Shown here piece after piece: positions 1,635 to 22,603 of a stretch of DNA of 45,559 bases (the first letter of the stretch is position 1; every line of letters begins with the position of its first letter). Source of the DNA: Flavobacteriales bacterium (GTDB lineage: Bacteria; Bacteroidota; Bacteroidia; Flavobacteriales; TMED113); contig PKDT01000009.1 in assembly GCA_002863085.1 (NCBI GenBank), positions 1 to 45,559 of the forward strand. The letters are read 5' to 3'. Under the pieces are notes generated by a model, which was not told the origin of the DNA, searched no databases, and saw nothing but the letters and a program-made list of their open reading frames with translations. Both the position numbers and the translations under genes were made by a program.

Positions 1635-2481
1635 TTGTAAAAAGAAAACCCAATTTGTAAAATTGTAGCAAAATTAAATTAGGTTTATTAGAATTTAAAT
1701 TTTTAAGAATATGAGGTTTTAAAAATTTAAATGCGATTAATATAAAAGACTGAAATACGTTTAACTTATTAAACCAGACCAAGATTCTTATTTTGTCTTC
1801 GATGATTTTTTGATTTTCGTAAATCAAAAGATTTTCTAGGCTTGCTTCGCAATCAGCGATGAATTTTGAATTTTTTTTTAAGCCAATGTGATAAAGAGGA
1901 TTATCGATGTATTCAAAGTTGTAGTTACTTTCTAATTGAAAAATCAAGTCCTCGTATCCATATTTAGTTATCTTTTCATTAAATTTTTTTTCTAGTAAAA
2001 GATTTTTTTTTATGAGAAAATGGTGTGAAGAAAAATGTTTTATTTTTTTTTTGCTTTCTATTTTTTTACCATAATTCTCATGTAGTGAAAACTCACAATT
2101 ATTGCTTGTTTTGTATAGTGTTTGACCATAAAAAACAGTTTTATTTTTATTCTTATTTGCTTCGATTAAGTAATTTTCTATAAAATTGTCATCAACAATT
2201 TCGGAGTCACAATCGATGAACAAAAGCCATTCAAAATTTGCAGATTTAGCTAATTTGTTTCTTACTGCTGATCTACCAATATTTTTATTTAAAATAGAGT
2301 AGTGTGCGTTTTCAATTTGTTCTATTTTAAAATTTTTAAAAAGTTTTTTTGAACCATCTTCAATACAAATGATTTCAAAATTATTTAGTGATTTACTTTT
2401 TATACAAAGCTGGTTTAAATCATTTACTAATTTTAATAGATTCCAATTATGGCATGGTATAAGGATAGATAAATTAATCAT
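1606..2481 (-). CDS. GT2-family glycosyltransferase
   Basis: A 291-residue GT-A fold glycosyltransferase. It begins with [19 protein letters not shown], followed by IICIEDGS at about residue 37 (nucleotide-binding aspartate) and the DxD-type motif LLFIDCDSEI at about residue 86. The motif YGYEDLIFQLE at about 174 carries the catalytic-base ED pair seen in many GT2 enzymes. There is no obvious membrane segment, so it probably acts at the inner face of the membrane. Its ATG overlaps the TGA of ftsE in an ATGA arrangement at 2478-2481, so translation is probably coupled to ftsE. Its 3' end overlaps the convergent GT4 gene. The acceptor and sugar are unknown. Confidence 0.85.
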   Translation of the reverse strand: MINLSILIPCHNWNLLKLVNDLNQLCIKSKSLNNFEIICIEDGSKKLFKNFKIEQIENAHYSILNKNIGRSAVRNKLAKSANFEWLLFIDCDSEIVDDNFIENYLIEANKNKNKTVFYGQTLYKTSNNCEFSLHENYGKKIESKKKIKHFSSHHFLIKKNLLLEKKFNEKITKYGYEDLIFQLESNYNFEYIDNPLYHIGLKKNSKFIADCEASLENLLIYENQKIIEDKIRILVWFNKLNVFQSFILIAFKFLKPHILKNLNSNKPNLILLQFYKLGFLFTIKKKFFQKA

Positions 2482-3152
2482 CGTTCAAAAACAATATTTT
2501 TATCACATACAATTGTTCTGTTGGGGAATCTATCCATTAGATATTGATCATGAGATGCCATGAGAACTGTTTTTCTTGAAGTTATATCTTTAAGAAGCTC
2601 TATAATCTCAACAGACGTTTGAGGATCTAAATTACCAGTTGGTTCGTCAGCTAATATTAGCTCAGGATTATTTAACAAAGCTCGAGCAATTGATATTCTT
2701 TGTTGTTCACCACCAGAAAGCTGGTGAGGTTTTTTGTGTTTTTTTGTTGACATATTGACAAGATCAAGAACTTCATCAATACGCTTGGTAATACTTTTTG
2801 ACTTTTTCCAATCAGTTGCTTCAAGTACAAATTTTAAATTTTGAAAAACATTTCTGTCTTCAAGTAATTGAAAGTCTTGAAATATTATACCCATTCTTCT
2901 TCTAAGAAATGGTATTTCAGATTCTTTAAGCTTTTTGAGATTAAAACCTACAATTTGTGCATTACCTTGTTTTAAATTTAAATCACCATAAAGTGTTTTT
3001 AAAAGACTGCTTTTACCCGATCCTGTTCTTCCAATTAAATAAACGAATTCGCCTTTCGATATTTCAAAAGTAACATCCTTAAGTACAAGGTGATTATTTT
3101 GATAAATCTGTGCTTTTTCTAAAGAGATAGTTGGTTTTGTTTTATCAAACAT
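2478..3152 (-). CDS. ftsE: cell-division ABC transporter ATP-binding protein FtsE
   Basis: FtsE is the ATPase partner of FtsX; the pair controls peptidoglycan hydrolases at the division septum. The 224-residue protein has a complete ABC domain: Walker [10 protein letters not shown] at about residues 41-49, a Q-loop in [10 protein letters not shown] at about 89-98, signature LSGGEQQR at about 144, Walker [13 protein letters not shown] at about 164, and an H-loop in MASHD near 199. LolD and MacB ATPases are close relatives, but the short length and N-terminal pattern fit FtsE. FtsX is not adjacent, which is common in Bacteroidota. The gene is divergent from the TPR gene and forms an ATGA overlap with the downstream glycosyltransferase. 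Confidence 0.85.
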
Positions 3153-3275
3153 TTATTAAAAATTATGTTGTTCTACCAAATCCACATTAATATACAAAAA
3201 ATAAATGTTAATTATTTTGTGAAATATTTAATCAATTTACGTGTTATTGTATTAATAATAAATTTATGTTTACGT

Positions 3276-6245
3276 ATGCATAATTTGGCTTTTATTATTT
3301 TTTTTATTGTATTTGGACTCTCTGCTCAGGATTCAAATACACTCTATACTAAAGCCATTTCCTGTTATAACAATCAGGATTATAATTGCTCAAAAAAATA
3401 TCTAGAATCTTGTATGAATACAAATGTGTTACAAAAAGATTTTCAAATGGATTATGTTCATTATTATTATTTTTTATCATCATTAAAATTATACAACCCT
3501 AATACAGAGTTTTTATTCAAAAAGTTTTTAAAAGAATTTCCACTAAGTTCTAAAAAAACTGATTTGATAATAAATATGGCCAGTTTTTATTTTGAAAAGA
3601 AGAAATTTAGTAATGTCGTAGATTTATTGGAGGAAGTTAATTTATATAAGGTTCCAAAATCAATTCGAAATAGTGTTTTTTTTCAACTTGGGTATAGTGC
3701 ATTTTCAGTTGAGAAGTTTGATTTAGCAAAAAATTCATTTTTTGAAATAATAAACTCTAATGATTCAGTGCATATTGAAGATGCAATTTTTTACAATGCA
3801 ATAATATTTGAGAAAGAAAACAATTATGATGATGCATTAGTAAATCTAGAGTCTTTAGTTGAATCAGAAGGTTACCAGTCAGAGGCGGTTTATCAAAAAA
3901 GTAAGATACTATATAATAATAATCAATATTCTGAATTAGTAAATTTTTTAGAACCGATAATTGATATTGTAAAAAAAAATCATTTTGAGTCTCTCATTCT
4001 TTTTCTTGCAAAATCTTATTTTCACTTAAATGACTATGATAAATGTATTGTTTATTACGATAGTTATAGATCACTAGTAAAAGAAGTGAGTATTCAGCAA
4101 ATTTATCAAATAGGAGTATCTTATTATAAAAAGGGTTTATATGGTTTTGCGGTTGATAACTTAAACAAAATAACAGATTCAGCCAGTGAGAAAATTAACC
4201 AATATGTTAATTATTACTTAGCTGATAGTTACAAAAAAATTGGCGATATTAACTCTGCAATTAATGCATTTATGTCAGCTTCATTAATGGATCATGACAA
4301 GGAAATAAAACATGATTCGTACTTCAATTATATTTTGCTTAGCTATGAACATCAAACAAATCAATCTGGTTTAATTTTCCACATTAATGAATTCATTAAG
4401 TTATACCCGAATTCTAAACATGTTGACGAATTAGTATCTTGTTTAGCTAATATTCATCTAAATAGTTTGGACTACGATCTTGCAATCAATGTTCTGCAAA
4501 ATAATAATTTAAAAAATTATGATAATCTTAAACAATTTCAAAAAGTTTGTTTTTTCAAAGCAGTACAATTATTTAATGATGCGGAGCACCAGTCAGCCGA
4601 AATTTACTTCAAAAAATCAATCGAGACGGACATTAAAAATGATCTGTGGTTTAAAGCTAACTTTTGGTCAGCTGAAAACTATTTTGAACTAGATATTTAT
4701 AACAAAGCAATTAATTCATATAATTTATCAAAAGAATATCCTGAATTTGCCTTTGAAAGCTTATACGGCATGGGCTATGCATATCTAAAAATAAATCAGC
4801 AAACAAATTCGATAAACAATTTTTTAGATGCCGTGGAGTTAACAGATAACAAAAGGTATATCCACGATATATATGCCAGAGTTGGTGACAATTTTTTTGA
4901 ACTTGGTAATTATGATTCCGCATCTGATTTTTATACCAAATCAATCAAAATTGGTGGAATTCAATCAGAATATTTGATTTTCAGAAAGGCGATTTCTTTA
5001 ATGCTTAGAGAAAAATATGACATGGCAATTAAGTCCTTGAACTTATTAATTAGTGACTATCCACAATCAAATTTTATAGATGAAGCTATCTTTAAGCTAG
5101 GAGAAATTTATATTATAACCAAAAATTTTGATCTAGCAATTTCATCCTTTGAAAAAATAATTAATGAATTTCAGAATAGTAATTTTTACGCAAGTTCTAA
5201 GCTCAAGTTAGGCTTAGTTTATTATATGAAGAACAATGATGAAAAATCAATCAATATTCTTGAAAAATTATTAATTGAGTTTCCAAACTCTCTTATTTCA
5301 GAGGAGTCTTTGATCATTCTTAAAAATATATATAGTGATAGGGGAGAGCTGAATAAGTTTTTAGATCTTATAAAAAATTTAAATCATGATTATTCAAAAT
5401 CAGAGCTAGACTCGACAACTTTTTTATCTGCTGAATTACAGTTTCTAAAATCGAATTATGTGAATTCAAAGGCTGCCTTCAAAAATTATTTAGATTATTA
5501 TCCAGATGGATTATTTATATTAGAAGCTAACTATTATTTATACAGAACATACAAGGAGCTAGATGAATTCAGTGAGGCATTAAATCATCTTGATTATATT
5601 GTTAGTAAGAGTGAAAATAAGTACACTGAGGAAAGTTATAGTTCTTTGGCAGAAATATCCTTCTCATTAGAAAAATATATTTCCTCTGAAAAATATTTCG
5701 AAAAATTATTAAATGTTTCAAAAACAATTGACATAAAACAAAAAGCTTTACTAGGTTTAATTGAATCAAAGTTTAAACTCTATAAGTATCAGGAAATAAT
5801 AATGACTATTGACAATTATTATAAAGATGAGATTTTCTCAGGAAAAGATTTCAAAAGACTAAAATATATTGAAGCAGTTTCCCTCTACAAAGTTGGTAGT
5901 GATAAAAAGGCATTAATTAAGTTCAAATGGCTTAAAAATAATAGTGATGGTTCCTTGAAGGCCGAGTCATATTACAATTTGGCTTTAATTAGCTATAATT
6001 TAGGTAAGTATGATGAGTCTCAAAAGTTTGTATTTAATCTTATCAATGAGTTACCAAGTTACAAAAAATGGGTAAACAATTCGCTTCTCGTTTTATCCAA
6101 ATGTTATTTTAAAAAAGGTGACATATTTCAGTCTCGACACGTCTTAGATGAGCTTAAAAATAAAACAGATGATACTTTTTTGCTTGATGAAATTGATTCA
6201 CTTTTGCGTAACTTTGATAATGAGGGTTCAGATACGATAAAATAG
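3276..6245 (+). CDS. large secreted/periplasmic tetratricopeptide-repeat protein
   Basis: A protein of about 989 residues made almost wholly of TPR helices, for example the pairs SNFIDEAIFKLGEIYIITKN and SEALNHLDYIVSKSE. I start it at the ATG at 3276, because this gives a clean signal peptide, MHNLAFIIFFIVFGLSAQ, ending just before the TPR part. The frame is open upstream to an ATG at 3165, but that extension is not signal-like. TPR arrays serve as protein-binding scaffolds; the partner here is unknown. The gene lies 5 bases before a predicted outer-membrane barrel gene with which it is surely co-transcribed. That pairing suggests an envelope complex. No catalytic domain is visible. Confidence 0.85.
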   Translation: MHNLAFIIFFIVFGLSAQDSNTLYTKAISCYNNQDYNCSKKYLESCMNTNVLQKDFQMDYVHYYYFLSSLKLYNPNTEFLFKKFLKEFPLSSKKTDLIINMASFYFEKKKFSNVVDLLEEVNLYKVPKSIRNSVFFQLGYSAFSVEKFDLAKNSFFEIINSNDSVHIEDAIFYNAIIFEKENNYDDALVNLESLVESEGYQSEAVYQKSKILYNNNQYSELVNFLEPIIDIVKKNHFESLILFLAKSYFHLNDYDKCIVYYDSYRSLVKEVSIQQIYQIGVSYYKKGLYGFAVDNLNKITDSASEKINQYVNYYLADSYKKIGDINSAINAFMSASLMDHDKEIKHDSYFNYILLSYEHQTNQSGLIFHINEFIKLYPNSKHVDELVSCLANIHLNSLDYDLAINVLQNNNLKNYDNLKQFQKVCFFKAVQLFNDAEHQSAEIYFKKSIETDIKNDLWFKANFWSAENYFELDIYNKAINSYNLSKEYPEFAFESLYGMGYAYLKINQQTNSINNFLDAVELTDNKRYIHDIYARVGDNFFELGNYDSASDFYTKSIKIGGIQSEYLIFRKAISLMLREKYDMAIKSLNLLISDYPQSNFIDEAIFKLGEIYIITKNFDLAISSFEKIINEFQNSNFYASSKLKLGLVYYMKNNDEKSINILEKLLIEFPNSLISEESLIILKNIYSDRGELNKFLDLIKNLNHDYSKSELDSTTFLSAELQFLKSNYVNSKAAFKNYLDYYPDGLFILEANYYLYRTYKELDEFSEALNHLDYIVSKSENKYTEESYSSLAEISFSLEKYISSEKYFEKLLNVSKTIDIKQKALLGLIESKFKLYKYQEIIMTIDNYYKDEIFSGKDFKRLKYIEAVSLYKVGSDKKALIKFKWLKNNSDGSLKAESYYNLALISYNLGKYDESQKFVFNLINELPSYKKWVNNSLLVLSKCYFKKGDIFQSRHVLDELKNKTDDTFLLDEIDSLLRNFDNEGSDTIK

Positions 6246-6250
6246 ATGTT

Positions 6251-7906
6251 ATGAGATTATTTTTTATTTTTATTTTCTTTGTTTTTACCACTTCTTTGTT
6301 TTCTCAAAACGAAAAACTCAGAACTGAAACCATCAATGTTTTCAAAGAATATAATGCACTAACTCCGGATTTTAAAAAAATAAGTGAACAGCCTATTTAT
6401 GATGACTCACTCAAATCTGTAATAAAAACTGACAGAAAAATAATGGAGTATCAATTTTCTCAGAAAGAAAAAATTATTTTTAAGTCTCATCCTAAATTTA
6501 TTCAAGATAATTCAAGAAGCATAAAACCTAGAAATATTCTTTTAGAATTGGGTTCAAATAATTATACTAAATCTAAATTTCATTATTCAAATGGATTGTC
6601 TTTACAACATAACTCTGGAATCTTACTAAATTTTAAAAAACATAATCATAACATTTTTAGTAATGAATTTCTCAAAAGAAACGGTGAAAAAAAATATCAC
6701 GGGAGAATTTACACAACAAGATTCTTAAAAGGCAGGACTATAAATGCTTCATTTCAACTAGAAAACTTAAATGCGCTGTACTGGGGAGGTTTAGACTCTA
6801 TTCAAATAAACAAAATTCACGAGCTTAAATGTGGTAATTTAGGTTTAGATTTAAATCTTGATCAATTTTCTTCTGAAAGTTTGCTAAAAAATGCAAAACT
6901 TGGAATTAATCGGTTTTTCTTAAACAGTTCTAGAAACGATTTTTTATTAGAAAACTCTCTTATATTTGAATTAGAAAAAGCTTTGAAAACTTACAATCTT
7001 GTTATTGAAAATAACTACTCATCTTCTGAGATTAATTTAACTCAAACAATCAATTCAATTAATGATTTAAGTCAATCATTTGATATTTTTATTAATTCAA
7101 AATTTTCAGTATCGTTTCAAAAGGAAAATAGCTACGATTTTGGATTTAATCTTAGTTACATTGAAAGAGATAAAAACAATGAACAAAACTTAATTTTATT
7201 TCCAAAATTTCATTTTTCAAGTGATAAGAGTTTTCAGAAATTTGGTTTATTAATAAATAATGAAATTGACTTCAATAATATTTTGAAAATTTTTGGAGAT
7301 CACCCACAAATTAATCCAAATTTTGAAAATTCTTTCACTAAAAATTATTATTCAAAGATTTATCATTTAGCTAAATTTGGAGAGTCCATAACATTTTACA
7401 ACAGACTCAGCTACAATTTCATTAGGGATTACATAGTTTTAGACTTACAAGTCAATGATCTGATGGGCTATTCATCAGCCAGACTGGTCGACCTTAATGG
7501 TTTAAATTTTGAGTCAAACTTATCATGGTCACTGACATCTGCAGAGCTTTTATTTAATTTATCATTGAATTCTTTCAAATCAAAAAATTATGAATCCAAA
7601 AATTTTATTCCAAATAAAATAAGCACGACTTTTAATGCCAATTTTTTTAAGGATTTAAGTTTTATGTTTGAGCTTTATCATGTTGGCCCCAGGGATATCC
7701 TTGATTTAGATAATAATACCAACCAATTAAACCATAAAACAATAAATGCATATACCAGTTCAAATATTTGTTTTAGTTATGATTACGACGAATTTACATT
7801 TTCATTAAGTTTTATCAATTTAGCTAATCAAACTTACAATTTTCACGAAGGTTTTTACAACGATGACGGCTTCAAATACAGATTTGGGGTTTATTATAAT
7901 TTTTAA
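6251..7906 (+). CDS. predicted outer-membrane beta-barrel protein
   Basis: A 551-residue protein with a signal peptide, MRLFFIFIFFVFTTSLFSQ, then about 90 residues of mixed charge, then a long region of alternating hydrophobic and polar strands rich in Asn, Ser, Phe and Tyr. It ends in RFGVYYNF, with the terminal phenylalanine typical of outer-membrane barrels recognised by the BAM complex. It resembles the barrel part of TonB-dependent receptors, but I cannot recognise a plug domain or TonB box. It starts 5 bases after the TPR gene and is likely its functional partner. A substrate cannot be named. The barrel assignment is moderately strong; a receptor role is only one possibility. Confidence 0.75.
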   Translation: MRLFFIFIFFVFTTSLFSQNEKLRTETINVFKEYNALTPDFKKISEQPIYDDSLKSVIKTDRKIMEYQFSQKEKIIFKSHPKFIQDNSRSIKPRNILLELGSNNYTKSKFHYSNGLSLQHNSGILLNFKKHNHNIFSNEFLKRNGEKKYHGRIYTTRFLKGRTINASFQLENLNALYWGGLDSIQINKIHELKCGNLGLDLNLDQFSSESLLKNAKLGINRFFLNSSRNDFLLENSLIFELEKALKTYNLVIENNYSSSEINLTQTINSINDLSQSFDIFINSKFSVSFQKENSYDFGFNLSYIERDKNNEQNLILFPKFHFSSDKSFQKFGLLINNEIDFNNILKIFGDHPQINPNFENSFTKNYYSKIYHLAKFGESITFYNRLSYNFIRDYIVLDLQVNDLMGYSSARLVDLNGLNFESNLSWSLTSAELLFNLSLNSFKSKNYESKNFIPNKISTTFNANFFKDLSFMFELYHVGPRDILDLDNNTNQLNHKTINAYTSSNICFSYDYDEFTFSLSFINLANQTYNFHEGFYNDDGFKYRFGVYYNF

Positions 7907-7981: not shown

Positions 7982-9934
7982 ATGGATTTAGACAATCAAA
8001 AGAACTCTCAGTATTCTGCTGGTAGTATACAAGTTTTAGAAGGTTTAGAAGCTGTTAGAAAAAGACCAGCTATGTACATTGGTGATGTTGGACAAAAGGG
8101 CCTCCACCACCTTGTTTATGAAGTTACTGATAATTCAATTGATGAGGCCCTCGCAGGGCATTGTAAAAATATTCATGTTACCATTAACGAAAACAACTCA
8201 ATTACAGTTTTAGACGACGGAAGAGGTATTCCAACAGGTTTACACGAAAAAGAAAAAAAATCTGCCCTCGAAGTTGTTATGACCGTTTTACACGCAGGTG
8301 GTAAGTTTGATAAGGATTCTTACAAAGTTTCAGGTGGTTTACATGGTGTCGGAGTCTCATGCGTAAATGCACTATCTCAACACCTCAAGGTTACCGTGTA
8401 CAGAGAAAATAAAATATTTTGTCAGGAATATGAAAAGGGAGTTCCTCTTTATCCGGTTAAACAGATTGGAGAAACTGAAAAAAGAGGAACCGAGGTGACA
8501 TTTTTGCCTGATAGTAGCATTTTTGTTGACACCAATTATGTGTATGATATCCTGTCTTCCAGAATGCGTGAACTTTCTTTTTTAAATAAGGGCATATCTA
8601 TTTCTATTACTGATAAAAGAACAAAAGATGAAAACAATAATTACTTAACCGACACATTCTTTTCGGAGGGCGGTCTAAAGGAGTTTGTAAAGTACCTAGA
8701 CGCAACACGAGATTCGTTAATGGAAAATGTTATGTACATGGAAGGTGAAAAAAATGGCATTCCAGTTGAGGTAGCAATGCAGTACAACACAACATACTCG
8801 GAAAATTTACACTCTTATGTCAACAATATTAACACCCATGAAGGTGGGACTCATCTTTCGGGTTTTAGAAGAGCTCTTACAAGAACACTCAAAAGTTTCA
8901 TAGAGAAGACCGGGGTTTTGTCTAAAGAAAAAATTACCATTTCAGGAGATGACTTTAGAGAAGGTTTAACGGCAGTTGTTTCCGTTAAAGTTATGGAGCC
9001 TCAGTTCGAAGGTCAAACGAAAACCAAGTTGGGAAATAGTGAAGTCATGGGTCCCGTTGATCAACTTGTTGGTGAAATGCTTTTCAATTATTTGGAGGAA
9101 AACCCAAGAGAGGCTAAGTCAATTATCCAAAAGGTTGTTCTAGCCGCAAAGGCAAGACAAGCTGCTCGAAAAGCTCGTGAACTTGTTCAGAGAAAAACAG
9201 TAATGTCTTCAACCGGTTTACCGGGAAAACTTTCTGATTGTTCTGAGTCTGACCCAAATTTATGCGAGATTTTTTTAGTTGAGGGTGATTCTGCTGGTGG
9301 AACTGCTAAGCAAGGAAGAGATAGGGCATTTCAAGCTATACTTCCTCTCAGAGGAAAGATTTTGAATGTTGAAAAAGCTATGCCATACAGAGTATTTGAA
9401 AATGAAGAAATTAAAAACATGTTTACTGCTCTTGGTGTTTCTGTTGGTACTGAGGAAGATGAACGAGCACTAAATTTAGAAAAACTGAGATATCACAAAA
9501 TTGTAATAATGTGTGATGCTGATGTAGATGGAAGTCACATTGCAACATTGATTTTAACTTTTTTCTTCAGGTATATGAAAGAACTAGTTGAGTCTGGATA
9601 TGTATACATTGCTACCCCCCCTCTTTATTTGGTGAAAAAAGGATCAACTCAGAAATACTGTTGGGATGATAAAGAAAGGGATGATACAGTTGAAAATTTA
9701 AGAGCTGGAAAAGACATTAAAGTTAATATTCAAAGATATAAAGGTCTTGGTGAAATGAACGCCTCTCAATTATGGGATACTACCATGAATCCTGAAAATA
9801 GAACTCTTAGACAAGTAACAATTCAAAATGCTGCTGAAGCGGATAGAGTATTTTCTATGTTGATGGGGGATGATGTTCCTCCAAGAAGAGCGTTTATTGA
9901 AGAAAATGCTAAGTATGCTAAAATAGATGTATAA
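7982..9934 (+). CDS. gyrB: DNA gyrase subunit B
   Basis: GyrB supplies the ATPase and the metal-binding TOPRIM domain of DNA gyrase, which introduces negative supercoils. The 650-residue protein has the expected order. The GHKL ATPase has EALAGHCKNIHV at about residue 45, DDGRGIP at about 78 and the GGLHGVGVS lid at about 118. The transducer domain has QTKTKLGNSEV at about 345. TOPRIM has EGDSAGGTAKQGRDRAFQA at about 434 and the metal motif DADVDGSH at about 512. The tail has QRYKGLGEMN at about 584. The length is normal for the short Bacteroidota form. gyrA is not adjacent. Its stop lies 2 bases from the stop of the convergent T9SS cargo gene, so there is no room for a terminator. Confidence 0.97.
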   Translation: MDLDNQKNSQYSAGSIQVLEGLEAVRKRPAMYIGDVGQKGLHHLVYEVTDNSIDEALAGHCKNIHVTINENNSITVLDDGRGIPTGLHEKEKKSALEVVMTVLHAGGKFDKDSYKVSGGLHGVGVSCVNALSQHLKVTVYRENKIFCQEYEKGVPLYPVKQIGETEKRGTEVTFLPDSSIFVDTNYVYDILSSRMRELSFLNKGISISITDKRTKDENNNYLTDTFFSEGGLKEFVKYLDATRDSLMENVMYMEGEKNGIPVEVAMQYNTTYSENLHSYVNNINTHEGGTHLSGFRRALTRTLKSFIEKTGVLSKEKITISGDDFREGLTAVVSVKVMEPQFEGQTKTKLGNSEVMGPVDQLVGEMLFNYLEENPREAKSIIQKVVLAAKARQAARKARELVQRKTVMSSTGLPGKLSDCSESDPNLCEIFLVEGDSAGGTAKQGRDRAFQAILPLRGKILNVEKAMPYRVFENEEIKNMFTALGVSVGTEEDERALNLEKLRYHKIVIMCDADVDGSHIATLILTFFFRYMKELVESGYVYIATPPLYLVKKGSTQKYCWDDKERDDTVENLRAGKDIKVNIQRYKGLGEMNASQLWDTTMNPENRTLRQVTIQNAAEADRVFSMLMGDDVPPRRAFIEENAKYAKIDV

Positions 9935-9936
9935 AA

Positions 9937-12420
9937 TTATTTAGCCATTATTATTTTTCCTAGTTCTTTTTTTTCAATCCCCATATTAGTTTTGTAAACT
10001 ACTTTATAGCTATAAATATCTGAGGGTAGCATTTCTCCATTTATTTGTTTTCCATCCCAACCTTCTTCGTATTTATTGGTTTTAAAAAGCTCATTTCCCC
10101 ATCTGTCAAAAATTGTTAATGAATAACTTTCGTAATCGATATTCATTAAAGAAGGAGAAAATGTATCATTCATACCATCATTATTTGGTGTGAATATGTT
10201 TGGGGTGTATGAATAATAGTCCTGTAAAACTCTTAGTTCTTTTGTAATAACATCACTACAACCAAAAATGTCGACAACCTCTAGTGTAACAAAATATACG
10301 CCTGGTTGAAGATATTGATTTGTTGGGTTTTGTTGATTTGAATTATTACCATCACCAAAATCCCAAGACCAAGAAATTATATTGTTATCAATGGATAAAT
10401 CAGTGAATTCAGTTGGTTCATTAGATAGTGAGAACTCAAACTCATCAGTTTCAAAATTAGCCAGAGGAGATGAATTTAATGAAATATAACTTTCACTTTC
10501 ACAGTTATTACTATCATTTACTGAAACTAAGTACTCCCCAGCCTCTAGTCCCTCAAAGTTTCCATTTGTATTGGAATCAACTATATTGTTGTCATATGAT
10601 AAACTATAGAAGTAGTTAGGGATTCCCCCTGATGCATTAATGGAAATTTCGATGTCATTAACATTACAATCTTCAAAATCTACATCAAAACTTACAGCCT
10701 CATTTTCATTGATTTCTATTGAAAATAACTCTTCACAACCATTTTGATCTGTAAGAGTAAGTGAATAGTTTCCGCCGGAAACATTTTGTAAGTCTTCGGT
10801 GTTGAAAGAATCACCCATGGGATTAACCCAAACATATGAATAATTAGGGTTTCCGCCAGAAACAGTTATATCAATGAAACCATCTTCTGAATTATTACAG
10901 CTCACACCACCAGTTTCATTCAACTCGATAATTATTTCATTAGGTTGATTAATATTAAAAATAATTTCATCACCAGTTATTAAACATCCGTTTGAATCAA
11001 GAACTGAGTAATAATAATCACCAGATTCTAAATTATTAAATGATATTAAATCACCAGATTCAGTAGAAATATTTTCTTGGTTAGCATTATATAAATACGT
11101 TGTATATGGTGAAATACCACCCTCTATTGTGATTTCTATCAATCCGTCACTTCCACCAAAACAAGAAACATCAGAGGTTAAATCACTAGAAATTATTTGC
11201 GCAGGTTGATTGATTGATATATTAATTTCTGAGCTTACACACAAGCTTGACTCTTCTTGAATGTCAATAAAGTATTCTCCTGGGCTGAGGTTTTGGAAAA
11301 TAAATTCTTCATTACTGGAATTTTCAGATAAAATGAGAGTTGAGTTCGAATCATAAAGATTATATATCCAGTTTCCTTCATAAGGAGCGAAGACCTCTAT
11401 TGTTCCGTTATTTAGTTCAAAGCAACTTACGTCATTGCCATTTCCACTCAAATTCAGTTCTTCGAAAAAGATACTAACATCATCACCTTCTATACCTCCT
11501 TCAAATCCACACCAATCTCCAGCATCACCACAAAGTGAGGCACCAGCAGTGTAAGTAACATTTCCGCCAGGAATTACTGTTATTTGTCCACCTGTTCCAA
11601 TCTGATTTCCAAATTCATCTTGCCATATGATGTCAGTTCCTGCTACTGCAGGAGCAAATTCCATATTTTCTATGACATAGTCATCGTTTCCGTTTGGTGT
11701 GAATCTCCAAGCATCATTTTCACATGTCCATTGATTTGGAAAATTTCTTACAATTCCATCAAGTCCTGTTACGACATGCGCAATTGTACCGTCAATATTG
11801 TGAAGACCGTGAACCGCCGCTCCTTCGTTCCATGTTGTGCACAAAACCTTCTGTGCAATATGTGTTTCAATTATATTACTCCCCTCAAATAGCTTGATTT
11901 GACTTGAATAACATATATCAGTGCATGAAAACATAGGAATGCCGCAAAACGAAGCAATGAACACTCTGTTAGGTGCTTCACCTGTAGTTGCGTACTGTAT
12001 TGTGCCGTTTCCATTCGCCCCGGGGTAGATATCTTGCCATGGGCAAAGAATAGAGTTTTGTGTTTCTGGTTCTAAGTTGGTTGGTATAGCTGCATCTATG
12101 GTCCAGTCTGAGTAGTTGCCGGCATTGAAAGTATTGAAAGATAAATAATTATTAGATGCGAGTACGACCTGATTGTATGTATTTCCGTAAAAAACAAAAT
12201 CAAAACCAAGGTCTATTACACTTCCAAAGATATCGTCAGTGTATATATTTGAATCATTTAGGTCTACAGCGAATGAAGTTGCTGATAAAATAACCTCAAC
12301 ATTTCCTTGTTCACCCTCACAGAGATAAACATCGTCGGATGCAACAACTTGTGATTTCAAATCACAAACAAATAATGTCAGTACTAAAGAAAGAAGTAAA
12401 AAATTATCTATTCTATTCAT
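9937..12420 (-). CDS. T9SS cargo with SprB-like repeats, PKD domain and type B (gliding-motility) C-terminal domain
   Basis: An 827-residue secreted adhesin-like protein. A signal peptide at residues 1-24 ends near LKSQ. Residues of about 30-235 form a Cys- and aromatic-rich domain of the sort seen at the N-terminus of large Bacteroidota surface proteins. Several repeats of about 80 residues follow at about 330-650, with recurring cores such as VSCFGGSDGLIEITIEGG and VSCNNSEDGFIDITVSGG, similar to SprB repeats. A PKD domain (WSWDFGDGNNSNQQNP) comes next. The last 95 or so residues, with TPNIFTPNNDGMNDTF, IFDRWGNELF and W-D-G-K, are the gliding motility-associated type B sorting domain. It is exported by Sec and then by T9SS to the surface. 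The ligand is unknown; gliding motility is not proven by this domain. Confidence 0.88.
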   Translation of the reverse strand: MNRIDNFLLLSLVLTLFVCDLKSQVVASDDVYLCEGEQGNVEVILSATSFAVDLNDSNIYTDDIFGSVIDLGFDFVFYGNTYNQVVLASNNYLSFNTFNAGNYSDWTIDAAIPTNLEPETQNSILCPWQDIYPGANGNGTIQYATTGEAPNRVFIASFCGIPMFSCTDICYSSQIKLFEGSNIIETHIAQKVLCTTWNEGAAVHGLHNIDGTIAHVVTGLDGIVRNFPNQWTCENDAWRFTPNGNDDYVIENMEFAPAVAGTDIIWQDEFGNQIGTGGQITVIPGGNVTYTAGASLCGDAGDWCGFEGGIEGDDVSIFFEELNLSGNGNDVSCFELNNGTIEVFAPYEGNWIYNLYDSNSTLILSENSSNEEFIFQNLSPGEYFIDIQEESSLCVSSEINISINQPAQIISSDLTSDVSCFGGSDGLIEITIEGGISPYTTYLYNANQENISTESGDLISFNNLESGDYYYSVLDSNGCLITGDEIIFNINQPNEIIIELNETGGVSCNNSEDGFIDITVSGGNPNYSYVWVNPMGDSFNTEDLQNVSGGNYSLTLTDQNGCEELFSIEINENEAVSFDVDFEDCNVNDIEISINASGGIPNYFYSLSYDNNIVDSNTNGNFEGLEAGEYLVSVNDSNNCESESYISLNSSPLANFETDEFEFSLSNEPTEFTDLSIDNNIISWSWDFGDGNNSNQQNPTNQYLQPGVYFVTLEVVDIFGCSDVITKELRVLQDYYSYTPNIFTPNNDGMNDTFSPSLMNIDYESYSLTIFDRWGNELFKTNKYEEGWDGKQINGEMLPSDIYSYKVVYKTNMGIEKKELGKIIMAK

Positions 12421-12545: not shown

Positions 12546-13484
12546 ATGAAAATAACCGTTGTGGGCGCAGGTGCAGTTGGTGCAAGTTCTGCCGAGTATA
12601 TTGCTATTAAAAACTTTGCTTCTGAAGTCGTATTACTAGATATCAAAGAAAATTTTGCTGAAGGAAAAGCAATGGATCTTATGCAGACATCGTCACTTAA
12701 CTCTTTTGATACAAAAATCATTGGTTGTACCAATGACTATTCAAATACTAAAAATAGTGATATTGCCGTCATAACTAGTGGTATTCCAAGAAAGCCTGGT
12801 ATGTCTAGGGAAGAGCTCATTGGAATAAACGCCAAAATAGTCAAAGAAGTTTCTGATGAATTAATTAGATTTTCTCCTAATGTAATTTTAATTATCGTTA
12901 GTAACCCTATGGACACTATGACATACCTTGCATACAAAACGCTTGGTATCGAAAAAAGAAGAGTAATAGGCATGGGCGGTGCTCTTGATAGTGCTAGATT
13001 CAAATATAGGATCAGTGAAGCATTGTCATGTCCAAGTTCTGATATTTCAGCTATGGTTATCGGGGCACACAGTGATAAAGGAATGGTCCCTTTAACAAGG
13101 TTAGCTACAAGAAATAGCATTCCAATTAATCAAATGCTAAGTCATGAGACAATAGAGAAAATAAGACATGAAACTAAAGTTGGTGGCGCAACACTAACAT
13201 CAATGTTAGGTACCTCTGCATGGTATGCACCAGGGGCAGCTGTTTCTTCAATTGTTCACGCGATTGCATGTGACCAAAGAAAAATCTTTCCATGCTCTGT
13301 TTTTCTTGATGGTGAGTATGGTTTGAGTGATATCGCAATTGGTGTTCCAGTTGTATTAGGCAAAAATGGTATCGAAAGAATTTGTGAAATAGAACTTGAT
13401 AAAATTGAAAAAAATATGCTAAGCGAGTCGGCCTCGGGAGTTAATAAAACAAATGAAATTCTCAAGGAAATGAAAATTATTTAA
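12546..13484 (+). CDS. mdh: malate dehydrogenase (LDH-like type)
   Basis: This enzyme interconverts malate and oxaloacetate with NAD in the TCA cycle. The 312-residue protein has the Rossmann motif VVGAGAVGASSAEY at about residue 5 and LLDIKENFAEGKAMD at about 31, the acidic residue marking NAD use. It also has the substrate loop SGIPRKPGMSREEL with its arginines, SNPMDTMTY at about 119, and the catalytic histidine in VIGAHSDKGMVPL at about 171. The His-Asp loop reads AHSD where most relatives have GHGD; the catalytic His and Asp are kept. The arginine-rich loop argues for malate rather than lactate. The 3' end overlaps the convergent T9SS cargo gene by 8 bases. Confidence 0.94.
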   Translation: MKITVVGAGAVGASSAEYIAIKNFASEVVLLDIKENFAEGKAMDLMQTSSLNSFDTKIIGCTNDYSNTKNSDIAVITSGIPRKPGMSREELIGINAKIVKEVSDELIRFSPNVILIIVSNPMDTMTYLAYKTLGIEKRRVIGMGGALDSARFKYRISEALSCPSSDISAMVIGAHSDKGMVPLTRLATRNSIPINQMLSHETIEKIRHETKVGGATLTSMLGTSAWYAPGAAVSSIVHAIACDQRKIFPCSVFLDGEYGLSDIAIGVPVVLGKNGIERICEIELDKIEKNMLSESASGVNKTNEILKEMKII

Positions 13485-15777
13485 TCACTAGCTTGTGATT
13501 AATCTCAGTTTTTTTAGATTTGAGTTTAACGAAGTAAATTCCTTTTTTGAAGCTAACGTTAAAAAAAACAACATCTTCATTGATAATACTTTCATTTAAA
13601 ACCTCTTTTCCTAGTAAATTGTAAATAATGATTTGTCCATCAAATCTTTTATCAAATTTAATACTGAAATTCCCTGCACTAGGATTTGGAAACAGTTTAA
13701 CTTTGAGGTTTTCAAATTCATTTCCATTAGAGTTGAGATTATTTTCTGAAAAAAATTCAACACCTCCACTAGAGTTTCCCCTAACTAAGTCTATATAGCC
13801 ATCATTGTTTATATCGCTTATAAATATTTTTGAATGAATACAATTAGTGTCACCCAACATATTGTCAGATACTTCAGAGTACTCAAATTCTAAATTTAAT
13901 TCATAGTCGCCGTTTTCATTTATCTCTTCAACATTTTCATAAAGATGAACATTACCTCTTTCTGTTCCTACTGCTAATAAAAATTTATTTTCGTATTCAA
14001 AAACATGAGGATCAGTGTAACCAGTTAAATATATTGTGTCAGCAAGATGAATTCCGCCCAAACTTTTAATAATGATTTCAGATCCATTGCTATCGATAAT
14101 TCCGGTATTAAATGTAGGGGTGAAATCAGCAAAATTAGGGTCATTTATCGTACCTATGTTTTGATAGTAGTTAATCCCATTTAAAATTCCATTGTCAATA
14201 CCCATTCTTTCACCAATTACGAGATCCAGTAAACCGTCTCTGTTTAAATCCACAAGTTGTGGGGTTGCAAAACTACCAACATCAATATCTAAAACTTGAT
14301 AGTTCTCAAATTCTGGAAAGTTAGAATCGTTCAATCCTAAAGAACTAAATAGGTATATCTGACCATTGTTGTCTCCAACAATCATGTCTGTTAAGTTGTC
14401 GTTATTCAGATCACCAAAAGATGCGCTAAGTGATTGGAAACCAGACTGATTTCCAATTGATGACAGTTCGGCAAAATCGTTTGTAACAAATTCAAAAATT
14501 GGGTTTGTTAGTGTACCAGTATTCTTATAAAGTGAAATTTTAGAATTATAATTCCCATTATCGAAATAACCTTTGTTACATATTATTAAGTCTTTTAAGT
14601 TATCGTCGTTGAGATCATAAAGAAGGGGCTTAGAATTTGCCCCGACATCAATCATGCTACCAATTAAAAAATCATTGGATGAATAATTAAATTGAATTTC
14701 ACCATCTTCGTTTTGGCCGGAATTAACATAAAGATGAACGTTGTTGAAATTTTCAGACACATTGACACCGTTTGGATTAATTAAAATATCATCAAGATTA
14801 TCGTTATTCACATCGAGGTTAAAAGCAGCTGGAAATTTTGTTAAATTGATTGGAAGGTCATAACTAGGGTAATTTAGGTCTTGGTTGCTAATTGTGGCTT
14901 CATTTTGAGTCCCACCATTATATAGCATGACCATATTATCATATGTTAAATCGCCAAGAAGAAGTTCTAAACTTTGATTTACGTCTGGGTTTAAATCCAG
15001 GGCTAATAATGTTGACCCAGAATGTTTTGCAAATCTGCTATTTTCATTAACCTCATTGCAGTTTTCATCCAGCCCTAAAGTAACACTATTAGTACTGAAA
15101 TCTTCAACAAATTTTCCCCAACAATTATCACTTCTCACCATATTTATACTGTCACAGTTTCCGTACATTTGCATTGTTTTATTTTCATGAAAATAAACTT
15201 TGCTTCCTGATGGATCGAATGTTAAAATATCAATATCTGAGTCGCCGTCAACATCTACTATCGCAGGAATATCGGAACCACTTACATATAAATTAATTGG
15301 ACCGAATCCAGCGTCAGATTTAATTATTTTTAAAAATTCAAATTCTAAAACTTCATTCTCCGAAATATTTTTATAAACTGCTACCGATGAATTTTGGCTG
15401 GTGAATATGTCTTTTTTACCATCGAGATCGAAGTCAATCAAAAGTACCCAATCTCTCAGTTCAGGAAAATATGATGAGTATTCTGGGGAAAATATAAATT
15501 CGTTAGAGAAATTATTGAATAAAAATGTACTAATTTTAGCTCCGTTTTGAGTTCCGTTTTTTCCTGACTTATCAAATACAAATAAATCTTCAATTCCGTC
15601 TAGATTTAAGTCAATTTTTGAAAACTGACAAAAGTTCAATCCTCCGGACCAGGGGTTTTTCAACTCAACATTATCTTTAATAACACTTACATTAATCTGT
15701 TGTTCAAAGTTAATTTGACATTTGATTATGCAATTGAAAATTATCAATGATATCCAAAGAGTGTGTTTTTTGTACAT
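13477..15777 (-). CDS. T9SS cargo with FG-GAP/VCBS-like repeats and type A sorting domain
   Basis: A 766-residue secreted protein. It has a signal peptide over about residues 1-21 (MYKKHTLWISLIIFNCIIKC). Many FG-GAP/VCBS-type repeats follow, with calcium-binding D-x-[DN]-x-D-G-like loops such as DLNLDGIEDLFVFD, DVDGDSDIDILTFD, DLNNDNLTDMIVGD and DLNRDGLLDLVIGE; these predict a beta-propeller. The last 75 or so residues, from KLFPNPSAGNFSIKF through IYNLLGKEV to GIYFVKLKS, are a T9SS type A sorting domain. Such domains pass the outer membrane through T9SS and are usually cleaved and attached to the surface or released. No catalytic module is seen, so adhesion or ligand binding is likely. It is divergent from secDF across 164 bases. 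Confidence 0.9.
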   Translation of the reverse strand: MYKKHTLWISLIIFNCIIKCQINFEQQINVSVIKDNVELKNPWSGGLNFCQFSKIDLNLDGIEDLFVFDKSGKNGTQNGAKISTFLFNNFSNEFIFSPEYSSYFPELRDWVLLIDFDLDGKKDIFTSQNSSVAVYKNISENEVLEFEFLKIIKSDAGFGPINLYVSGSDIPAIVDVDGDSDIDILTFDPSGSKVYFHENKTMQMYGNCDSINMVRSDNCWGKFVEDFSTNSVTLGLDENCNEVNENSRFAKHSGSTLLALDLNPDVNQSLELLLGDLTYDNMVMLYNGGTQNEATISNQDLNYPSYDLPINLTKFPAAFNLDVNNDNLDDILINPNGVNVSENFNNVHLYVNSGQNEDGEIQFNYSSNDFLIGSMIDVGANSKPLLYDLNDDNLKDLIICNKGYFDNGNYNSKISLYKNTGTLTNPIFEFVTNDFAELSSIGNQSGFQSLSASFGDLNNDNLTDMIVGDNNGQIYLFSSLGLNDSNFPEFENYQVLDIDVGSFATPQLVDLNRDGLLDLVIGERMGIDNGILNGINYYQNIGTINDPNFADFTPTFNTGIIDSNGSEIIIKSLGGIHLADTIYLTGYTDPHVFEYENKFLLAVGTERGNVHLYENVEEINENGDYELNLEFEYSEVSDNMLGDTNCIHSKIFISDINNDGYIDLVRGNSSGGVEFFSENNLNSNGNEFENLKVKLFPNPSAGNFSIKFDKRFDGQIIIYNLLGKEVLNESIINEDVVFFNVSFKKGIYFVKLKSKKTEINHKLVIK

Positions 15778-20290: not shown

Positions 20291-22603
20291 ATGAAAAAAA
20301 GTCAAAAAATTATCCCTTTCCTATTACTAATTTTAGTTTCATCTTTTGCTTTTAGCCAAAATTCTGGTGACTTTAAAAAGGCAATGAAAGCCTTTGATAA
20401 CCTTGAATATGGAAAAGCTGAGACAATTTTCAAGAGGGCATACTCTAGATCTAATGATAGATTAGAAAAGAATAAAATTAGTTTTAAACTCGCTCAGTGC
20501 TACTTTTTCCTTGGGGATTATAAAAAAGCTGAAATGAACCTAAGAAGAACTCTCAAGATGCGTCATGACAATCCTCTTGTGTATTATTATTTGGCTGAAT
20601 GTTACAAAGGCATGGAAAAATTTGAAAAAGCTCAAGAACAATATGAAATTTATTCTAGCCTTGCACCAGATGATCCAAAAGGTATTAATGGTATTAAATC
20701 TCTTGAGTTATCTCAAAAGTGGATAATTGAGGGTAGTAAATATAGGGTTTTGAATGCTGGAAAAATCAACTCTTCTTCCAATGATTACTCACCAGCATTA
20801 AATCCAAAAGCAAAAAATGACCAGTACAAATTCTACTTTACCTCATCAAGAGATGGTGCACTAGGCAAGAATTTAAACCATCAAACTGGTCAGCCATTCT
20901 CAGATATTTTTAGATTAAAAGGATTTAGCAAAAAAGACAAGGCCAGGAAAAAAAACACCTCCAATATTCTTAATCCAGATGATAAATGGGATGTTGAGTC
21001 AATAACAAATACAAAAGATGGCCTTGAAGAAGTAGCCGTTAATCTAAAGAACTCCGAAGAAGGTGTAATTTCATTCGATGGAAGAGGAAATAAAATGTAT
21101 TTTACTCGTGCATTATTTTCAAAAAATAAGTATCAAGGAAGACGAATTTTTTCGGCCGAACTTAGAGGTAATGTTTTTGAAAAAACTGCTATGGAGGTTA
21201 TTCCTGTTGATACACTAGTCGACTTGCATGGCCCTAGTGTCAGTAGTGATAACAAAATGTTATTTTTTTCTGCTGAAATTGAGGGTGGCTTCGGCGGTTC
21301 GGACATTTACGTTTCAAAATACGATAGACGAAAAAAGTCTTGGGGTGAGCCCCAAAACTTAGGTGAAAACATCAACAGTTCTGGTAACGAAGCTTTTGCT
21401 CATTACAATTCGGATACTAAAAATTTATATTTTTCATCTGATGGCAGAATGGGTATGGGGGGACTAGACATATTTAAAGCTGAACATAATCCCTCGATTA
21501 GTGATGATGTAACTAAAATGTTTCAAGAAGCTGAAAATCTTAGATACCCAATAAATACTTGCTATGATGATTTTGGGATTACTTTCGAAGATGAAAAGGA
21601 ATCTGCCGGAATTCCTGAAATGAAGGGTTATTTTTCATCTAATAGAGTGGGGTCAAGATGGAAAAGTAAAGGAAATACTGATATATATTATTTTGACAAA
21701 AAAAGAACTTATTACAATCTAAAAGGAAAAGTTATAGACGTAGCTGATGGCGCTCCTATCAAGGGTGCAAAAGTCGAATTGATTGGACCAAGATCGAGTA
21801 AAGTAAAAATCACCAAAAAAGATGGAACTTTCAACTTCAGTGATGAAAACTTTTTTGACGATGAGGATTATAGACTTACAGTCAATAAAGACTGGTTCTT
21901 TCAAGTAGTTGACACTACAATTTCAACTTCTCATATCAGAAATGAGGATCTTGTTGTCATTACAGAAAAACATCCTCTATACAGTGATGATATTGACAAA
22001 ATGGGACATGATTCATATGAAATGACAAGAATGCCGATAGAAATGCGTACAATGAGACGTCCTTTGGTTCTCAAGAGTGTGCTTTTTGACTTGGGTAAGT
22101 CTGATCTCAGAAACGAATCAAAAGCAGAGCTAGATTCACTTGCTTCACTTTTGAATAATGATTGGCCTAATCATGTTATAGAACTTCGATCTCATACCGA
22201 TTTTAGAGGCAGTGATACTTTAAATACTCGTCTCTCGTTTGACAGAGCATTAAGTTGTGTAGACTATTTAGTTTCAGTTGGAGTAGATTCTAGAAGGTTA
22301 ATTCCTGTTGGTATGGCTGATACTGAGCCAACCGTTTTAACATCTGAGACAATGGGCCTCTCTCCAGGTTCACTAAGTAGAGAATACATTGAACGTTTAA
22401 AAACAAACTCTTTGAAGGAAATGGCTCATCAAAAAAATCGAAGAACAGATTTTAAAGTATTAAGCACTGATTTTGAAAGCTGGCTTGAAAATCCTGAAAA
22501 TGTTGAAAAAAGTAGCTCTATTAAAGACGCTAAAATAAAAAAAGATGGCAAAGTTGTTCCAATGAAGAAGTCTTCAGGAAACTACTTACAACAGCCTTAC
22601 TAG
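20291..22603 (+). CDS. PorE-like envelope protein: TPR, PD40 propeller, carboxypeptidase-regulatory-like and OmpA domains
   Basis: A 770-residue periplasmic or outer-membrane-associated protein. A signal peptide ends near SFAFSQ (residue 23). TPR helices run over about 25-150. PD40/WD40-like strands include YFTSSRDG, LFFSAEIEGGFGGSDIYVS and LYFSSDGRMGMGGLDIF, over about 170-400. A carboxypeptidase-regulatory-like fold follows (LKGKVIDVADGAPIKGAKVE) at about 477. The OmpA domain has VLFDLGKSDLRNES at about 597, ELRSHTDFRGSDTLNTRLSF at about 632 and DRAL; the Asp and Arg that bind diaminopimelate are present. The same domain order occurs in P. gingivalis PorE, a peptidoglycan-linked T9SS component, but many paralogues share it. 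A T9SS anchor role is therefore an inference. Confidence 0.82.
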   Translation: MKKSQKIIPFLLLILVSSFAFSQNSGDFKKAMKAFDNLEYGKAETIFKRAYSRSNDRLEKNKISFKLAQCYFFLGDYKKAEMNLRRTLKMRHDNPLVYYYLAECYKGMEKFEKAQEQYEIYSSLAPDDPKGINGIKSLELSQKWIIEGSKYRVLNAGKINSSSNDYSPALNPKAKNDQYKFYFTSSRDGALGKNLNHQTGQPFSDIFRLKGFSKKDKARKKNTSNILNPDDKWDVESITNTKDGLEEVAVNLKNSEEGVISFDGRGNKMYFTRALFSKNKYQGRRIFSAELRGNVFEKTAMEVIPVDTLVDLHGPSVSSDNKMLFFSAEIEGGFGGSDIYVSKYDRRKKSWGEPQNLGENINSSGNEAFAHYNSDTKNLYFSSDGRMGMGGLDIFKAEHNPSISDDVTKMFQEAENLRYPINTCYDDFGITFEDEKESAGIPEMKGYFSSNRVGSRWKSKGNTDIYYFDKKRTYYNLKGKVIDVADGAPIKGAKVELIGPRSSKVKITKKDGTFNFSDENFFDDEDYRLTVNKDWFFQVVDTTISTSHIRNEDLVVITEKHPLYSDDIDKMGHDSYEMTRMPIEMRTMRRPLVLKSVLFDLGKSDLRNESKAELDSLASLLNNDWPNHVIELRSHTDFRGSDTLNTRLSFDRALSCVDYLVSVGVDSRRLIPVGMADTEPTVLTSETMGLSPGSLSREYIERLKTNSLKEMAHQKNRRTDFKVLSTDFESWLENPENVEKSSSIKDAKIKKDGKVVPMKKSSGNYLQQPY

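Follow-up and report, generated by a model that had tools for sequence, protein, structure and literature searches.

A conserved Bacteroidota gene pair encoding a long TPR protein and an apparently plugless receptor-like barrel: candidate parts of a TonB/ExbBD-linked trans-envelope module

Introduction

Which envelope system is served by a very long secreted TPR protein and an outer-membrane barrel encoded side by side in a Flavobacteriales bacterium is the question raised by the locus at positions 3276–7906 of the sequence studied here. This sequence (the window) is a stretch of 45,559 nucleotides and represents one contig (PKDT01000009.1, assembly GCA_002863085.1) of a 1.35-Mb genome in 84 contigs that is 95.9% complete. 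A preliminary description of the locus, made from the sequence, had proposed a two-gene system in which a periplasmic scaffold serves an outer-membrane channel, and had assigned neither protein to a named family. A literature search of openly licensed papers returned no description of the pair. Comparison of the two proteins and their gene neighbourhoods across the phylum leads us to put the pair forward as candidate parts of a powered and so far undescribed machine of the Bacteroidota envelope.

Results

The locus and its neighbours

The TPR gene (3276–6245) and the barrel gene (6251–7906) lie on the forward strand, with 5 bases between the TPR stop codon (ending at 6245) and the barrel ATG (6251). 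Divergent from them, on the reverse strand, is a gene for an ftsE-like ABC ATPase (2478–3152; ORF list, Pfam and NCBIfam) that scores 242 bits against an NCBIfam FtsE cut-off of 265, and gyrB follows on the forward strand (7982–9934; Pfam, NCBIfam and neighbour comparison). ORF coordinates and strands therefore agree with the earlier picture of one transcriptionally oriented unit with a 5-base spacing, divergent from ftsE. Six other genomes of the window's family share the arrangement GT4-GT2-ftsE / TPR-barrel-gyrB and, because the TPR-barrel arrangement is in addition kept across the phylum, the pair is more than a chance juxtaposition. Of 67 loci, 17 show linkage to ftsE; all but one of these belong to the window's order, and the linkage is kept within that order and not beyond the class. 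Among the loci examined, gyrB is a neighbour only in the window's own family (in L010, G003:C17, it is split over two frames, through either a frameshift or an error of assembly), and it probably lies outside the module. Elsewhere in the window, about 12 kb downstream of the pair, a forward-strand gene (20291–22603) encodes a 770-aa protein with TPR, PD40 and OmpA domains, the make-up of PorE. Two reverse-strand genes encode likely type IX secretion substrates, one with FG-GAP repeats and a Por_Secre_tail sorting domain (13477–15777) and one with a gliding-type C-terminus recognized by eye only (9937–12420).

The TPR protein

The TPR frame can be read from an alternative start at 3165, giving 1026 aa, or from the ATG at 3276, giving 989 aa; the latter provides a signal-peptide-like N-terminus, as it does in relatives. 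TPR and TPR-like repeat families of Pfam matched the 989-aa protein, and its fold model is all helical (53 helices, or about 26 helix pairs; pLDDT 85, pTM 0.41), in keeping with the secreted, all-TPR protein of 989 residues first described. Among the matches listed in a search with this fold, helical-repeat proteins reached TM-scores no higher than 0.32, and the search was left unused. No lipobox was seen, the signal region being without cysteine, and a lipobox pattern was found in one of 41 assessable relatives from a set of 56. Stretches of the protein matched the BamD/YfiO and YbgF models, and the NCBIfam model tol_pal_ybgF was exceeded (116 bits against a cut-off of 90, best over residues 569–672). 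We read this last match as generic TPR sequence. The statement that neither protein falls in a named family holds for the barrel, which has no Pfam or NCBIfam match. Within the window's family TPR relatives are 42–51% identical to the window's protein (n=6) and barrel relatives 25–32% (n=6), so that the TPR protein is the slower-changing of the two.

The barrel protein

The barrel gene encodes 551 aa, beginning with a signal-peptide-like stretch and ending in ...YYNF, so that the terminal Phe given in the preliminary description is indeed present. The predicted barrel part comprises approximately residues 94–551 (6530–7903, forward strand), a low-confidence delimitation from the model and structure alignments. 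The window's protein gave no match in Pfam (E≤0.001) or NCBIfam (E≤0.1), and its sequence alone found nothing among solved structures. A profile of 29 barrels, by comparison, matched the C-terminus of the TonB-dependent receptor 5fr8 (E 2.5e-6) and, with weaker E-values of up to 0.16, 11 other receptor sequences. The receptor barrel domain PF00593 was matched by seven of 56 family members and the Plug domain PF07715 by none of the 56 (Pfam, E≤0.01).

Of five structure models of the barrel, the best (pLDDT 58, pTM 0.52, with seven sequences in the alignment; the other four, pLDDT 33–44) contains about 22–24 strand segments, and its residues 12–112 are mostly below pLDDT 50. All 50 Foldseek matches listed for it are TonB-dependent receptors (best E 4.9e-9, TM at most 0.45). 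A second structure alignment, covering mainly residues 92–551, also placed a receptor first (Z 16.6, rmsd 8.0, 369 residues), closely followed by the Mtr-complex protein MtrB (Z 15.2), VDAC (14.2) and the PapC usher (13.9). Since the model is weak and rival folds are close, kinship with receptors rests more on the sequence profiles than on the model. Taken together, the protein resembles TonB-dependent receptors and appears to lack a recognizable plug. The preliminary description had made membership of a known receptor family, with a clear plug and a TonB box, the finding that would speak against a new system; no member matched the Plug domain, and by its profiles the barrel is akin to receptors.

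Distribution and pairing across the Bacteroidota

In a phylum-wide sample of 247 genomes, a profile built from 32 of the TPR proteins found (A5; E≤1e-60) detected a TPR relative in 176, and nearly all genomes listed in this search had a single match. In a further order the TPR gene was found in 84 of 99 genomes. The corresponding figure for the barrel, 196 of 247 genomes, is not used as a prevalence because the barrel profile also catches ordinary receptors, of which L127 is one by eye. Regions were fetched from 60 of the 196 barrel-positive and 20 of the 176 TPR-positive genomes, hand-picked for family spread and not random; the 60 include L127, which falls outside the barrel cluster. Set A2 omits L023, which has runs of N, and by choice L016, L017, L026, L035, L039 and L043; set A6 omits L109, L110, L111 and L113.

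The TPR gene lies upstream of the barrel gene on the same strand in 49 of the 60 barrel-centred loci, with a gap of at most 150 bp in 45 of them. Starting from the TPR gene, the barrel gene is next in 13 of 20 loci (in five of the other seven the next gene is aroA-like by eye) and, in the further order, in 30 of 30, these being the best-scoring 30 of the 84. Adjacency is therefore the rule and separate occurrence the exception, as the check on synteny and co-occurrence proposed at the outset required of a genuine unit. The 11 unpaired barrel loci are L127, L082, eight in family f37 and one in f35. The genome of L082 has its TPR gene elsewhere, beside ftsE (L158), and the genomes of the nine f37/f35 loci, in which no TPR gene adjoins the barrel, likewise carry it at another site. 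Several genomes of genus g9 (L015–L017, L035, L042, L043, L073 and L075) have a gene of ~290–300 aa, PhzF-like by eye, between the TPR and barrel genes. At L244 (G009:C19:28124–30301) a second, cut-off TPR copy with an adjoining ftsE-like gene stands at a contig end; it is nearly identical to the copy at L242 and is perhaps an assembly duplicate.

Within the window's family both genes are present in nine of 12 genomes and neither in three. Both are missing from all three genomes of genus g2 (G001, G007 and G010; 62–86% complete), which keep an HU-domain gene of the kind described below (its SPOR part was tested in the window's genome only); the pair is therefore not indispensable.

A conserved segment ahead of the barrel

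Residues 18–54 of the barrel protein (6302–6412, forward strand) stand out by their invariant positions: an alignment of seven relatives has 12 such positions among the 37 of this segment, against 30 among the 514 elsewhere (p 3.7e-6, for a region chosen after looking). Across the phylum the segment before the barrel often has a form close to EExVxVVKPYxPxISDAxKI. When the second half was turned into a strict pattern, 42 of 86 N-termini contained it; it occurred nowhere in the remainder of these proteins, 30 of the 86 being cut at a locus end, or in shuffled sequences. The window's copy is a diverged form that falls outside the strict pattern. By eye, the first half resembles a TonB box; a scan of 56 barrels gave two at p<0.05 where 2.8 were expected, no better than chance, with a score built on four Escherichia coli boxes and run with no positive control. 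From its sequence conservation, the segment is possibly a docking segment. Barrel relatives with a different N-terminal motif (DIEIRSEFRARFPGLRRQPILGF and similar) occur at L106, L107, L109–L113, L117 and L126, where they adjoin SPOR-ExbB-ExbD-TonB genes away from the TPR gene.

Linkage to motor and SPOR genes

An all-against-all comparison of neighbours yielded recurrent downstream clusters of ExbB-like (22 loci), ExbD-like (19) and TonB-like (32) proteins, and one representative of each matched MotA_ExbB, ExbD and TonB_C, respectively. In 34 of the 60 regions the first six genes downstream of the barrel gene include at least one of the three, and in 18 they include all three. Twenty-five of the 34 motor-linked regions also have the TPR gene, nine of them combining TPR, barrel and all three motor genes. 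The linkage is distributed over many families in 34 of the 47 regions outside the window's order and was found in none of the 13 regions inside that order, the Flavobacteriales (L073–L085). Outside the window's order a gene with a SPOR domain often stands between the barrel and the motor genes. SPOR proteins are known from binding to the septal wall. Seven genes that adjoin the barrel gene or separate it from the motor genes were searched as SPOR candidates: five exceeded the SPOR cut-off, L087 was just under it and L092 had no SPOR match. HU-type domains (E≤0.001) were found in five of the seven, most of these over a cut-off. HU-CCDC81 domains are reportedly the subject of a 2017 paper. A search for the HU domain PF18175 was positive in 18 of 18 genomes tested, 16 of them over the cut-off; among 14 control genomes it gave matches below the cut-off in six and one above it. 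In the f37/f35 loci the order barrel-SPOR-ExbB-ExbD-TonB occurs without a TPR gene, which makes the barrel the element that joins the TPR half to the motor half.

The window's genome has related genes on other contigs. An HU-HU-SPOR gene on contig C1 (L179:7523–8845) is followed ~2 kb further on by ExbB-ExbD-ExbD, and contig C25 carries ExbB-ExbD-TonB-like-folC-like, the arrangement that other families have next to the barrel. Against the barrel-linked profiles the C25 set scores higher than that of C1 (ExbB, 262 versus 175 bits; ExbD, 134 versus 43 and 29). The TonB-like protein of C25 matched nothing in Pfam (E≤0.01) but did match the TonB-like cluster profile in a one-sequence search (E 7.8e-11). 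The ExbBD-TonB sets of Riemerella function in hemin uptake, and a strain with a double tonB mutation is viable (PMC5109031, available text); if the C25 set corresponds to one of these, it would be a general-purpose set.

Discussion

The motor genes that follow the barrel in 34 of 47 regions, often past a SPOR gene, suggest an energized machine over a passive channel. The reading of the pair as a periplasmic scaffold with an outer-membrane barrel is well supported as regards a conserved unit, and needs correcting on two points: more than two genes probably belong to the system, and the barrel is akin to TonB-dependent receptors. We propose that the pair is part of a trans-envelope module that is linked to TonB/ExbBD and contains a TPR scaffold, and we place the probability of this reading, in which contacts, energy coupling and function are all inferred, at roughly 0.45. 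In a module conserved in the Bacteroidota, the TPR protein would supply the periplasmic part and the barrel the part in the outer membrane, this barrel being like that of a TonB-dependent receptor, lacking the plug and preceded by the conserved N-terminal segment. The long TPR solenoid would bind this segment, the mouth of the barrel or both, tie the barrel to other periplasmic partners or to the cell wall, and may close or gate it. TonB, driven by ExbB-ExbD, would act on the assembly by means of the proton motive force, so that the module would pass force from the inner to the outer membrane. Since the gene that usually accompanies the barrel carries a SPOR domain, the module would most likely serve to maintain the envelope, perhaps where the cell divides. 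Maintenance at division is suggested by the SPOR gene, by the ftsE linkage and by the available text of PMC12204202, in which Bacteroidetes are said to be without identifiable tol-pal loci.

The main rival is a specialized TonB-dependent transporter, in which one conserved substrate would be moved in or out, the TPR protein would replace the plug as gate or carrier, and there would be no role in division. The similarity of the barrel to receptors (in the C-terminal profile match, the seven of 56 members with PF00593 and the Foldseek matches listed) and the nearby TonB/ExbBD genes fit this view, and in Myxococcus a TonB-dependent transporter is reported to be needed for protein export (PMC6434023, available text). 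The pair's barrel differs from TonB-dependent receptors in its length of ~550 residues, the lack of a Plug match in all 56 members and the ~1000-residue TPR partner. Against the transporter, a single pair per genome across very wide lifestyles is unusual for a substrate receptor, and no recurring surface lipoprotein or substrate-processing partner was seen among the neighbours. We regard the transporter as possible but doubtful.

In its boldest form the trans-envelope module would be the counterpart of Tol-Pal that the Bacteroidota seem to be missing, a machine coupled to division and made up of an ExbB-ExbD-TonB motor positioned by the SPOR protein, a plugless receptor-like barrel and a giant TPR strut. 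The motor would pull the barrel through the TPR strut, and the outer membrane would so follow the constricting cell wall. In outline, Tol-Pal (TolQRA, TolB, Pal and CpoB) would be matched by motor genes of the ExbB/ExbD/TonB type (near the barrel in 34 of 60 regions, in none of the 13 of the window's order), a periplasmic TPR protein, the SPOR protein and, in the window's order, the ftsE linkage. The differences are that the outer-membrane part of the pair is an integral barrel whereas Pal is a lipoprotein, that the linked transducer is TonB-like, and that the TPR protein is four times the length of CpoB (a 263-position model). The phylum also has another proposed stand-in: PorE, a CpoB-TolB-Pal fusion, has been put forward as a tether and Tol-Pal substitute (PMC12204202, available text). 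A protein with the domain make-up of PorE is encoded in the same window (20291–22603), but PorE is described in that paper as a lipoprotein with an OmpA domain and, as far as domains tell, is unrelated in sequence to the pair. We consider a Tol-Pal-like role unlikely.

An outer-membrane assembly or lipid-traffic factor (BAM-, Lpt- or Tam-like), its linkage to TonB incidental, would accommodate the TPR stretches that match BamD/YfiO and YbgF models and the absence of motor genes from the Flavobacteriales regions. It is an improbable reading in view of the motor linkage, found repeatedly (34 of 60 regions, from many families), and of the available text of two papers on Bacteroidota BAM (PMC12578637 and PMC12611786), which names no such subunits; 'TPR' and 'tetratricopeptide' do not appear in that of the former, nor 'tetratricopeptide' in that of the latter. 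A BAM subunit was accordingly set aside as a candidate. BamG is a 14-stranded FadL-type barrel (PMC12611786, available text), whereas the model of the pair's barrel (pLDDT 58) has more strand segments; FadL was absent among the matches listed in the second structure alignment, which excludes nothing.

TPR regions joined to or paired with an outer-membrane barrel are also a feature of the polysaccharide exporters BcsC, PgaA and AlgK-AlgE. The recurrent neighbours of the pair differ from these in including no polysaccharide synthase beyond the GT2/GT4 genes in the window's order. Porphyromonas PG1028 was dropped as a candidate, being an OmpA-like protein of ~60 kDa (PMC4980022, available text); it has also been listed as a TPR protein in vesicles (PMC4335976, available text).

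Least probable is a part in type IX secretion or gliding, towards which a co-occurrence with SprA that is strong in raw counts (173 of 247 genomes with both, three with the TPR gene only, 17 with SprA only and 54 with neither) and sub-threshold similarity to PorW/SprE, another large periplasmic TPR protein of Bacteroidota, would point. However, a single family (f31) accounts for at least 43 of the 54 genomes with neither gene, SprA occurs without the TPR gene in 17 of 247 and 13 of 99 genomes, and the window's TPR protein reaches 67.1 bits against the NF052312 cut-off of 250, has no lipobox and has a barrel as its partner. Five genomes without SprA have nevertheless retained the TPR gene (G161, G361, G368, G384 and G466), which weakens the case for an accessory role; both are lacking in G448 and G460.

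The components are familiar in kind; what is new, as far as could be seen, is their pairing and a receptor-like barrel without a plug. The trans-envelope module would bring together a barrel that, in the window, carries no Pfam or NCBIfam name, a TPR partner present in 176 of 247 genomes and a proton-driven motor linked to them in many families, and genus g2 is a lineage in which to look for what replaced the pair or freed the cell from it. If our reading is true, a receptor barrel has been re-used in the Bacteroidota without its plug.
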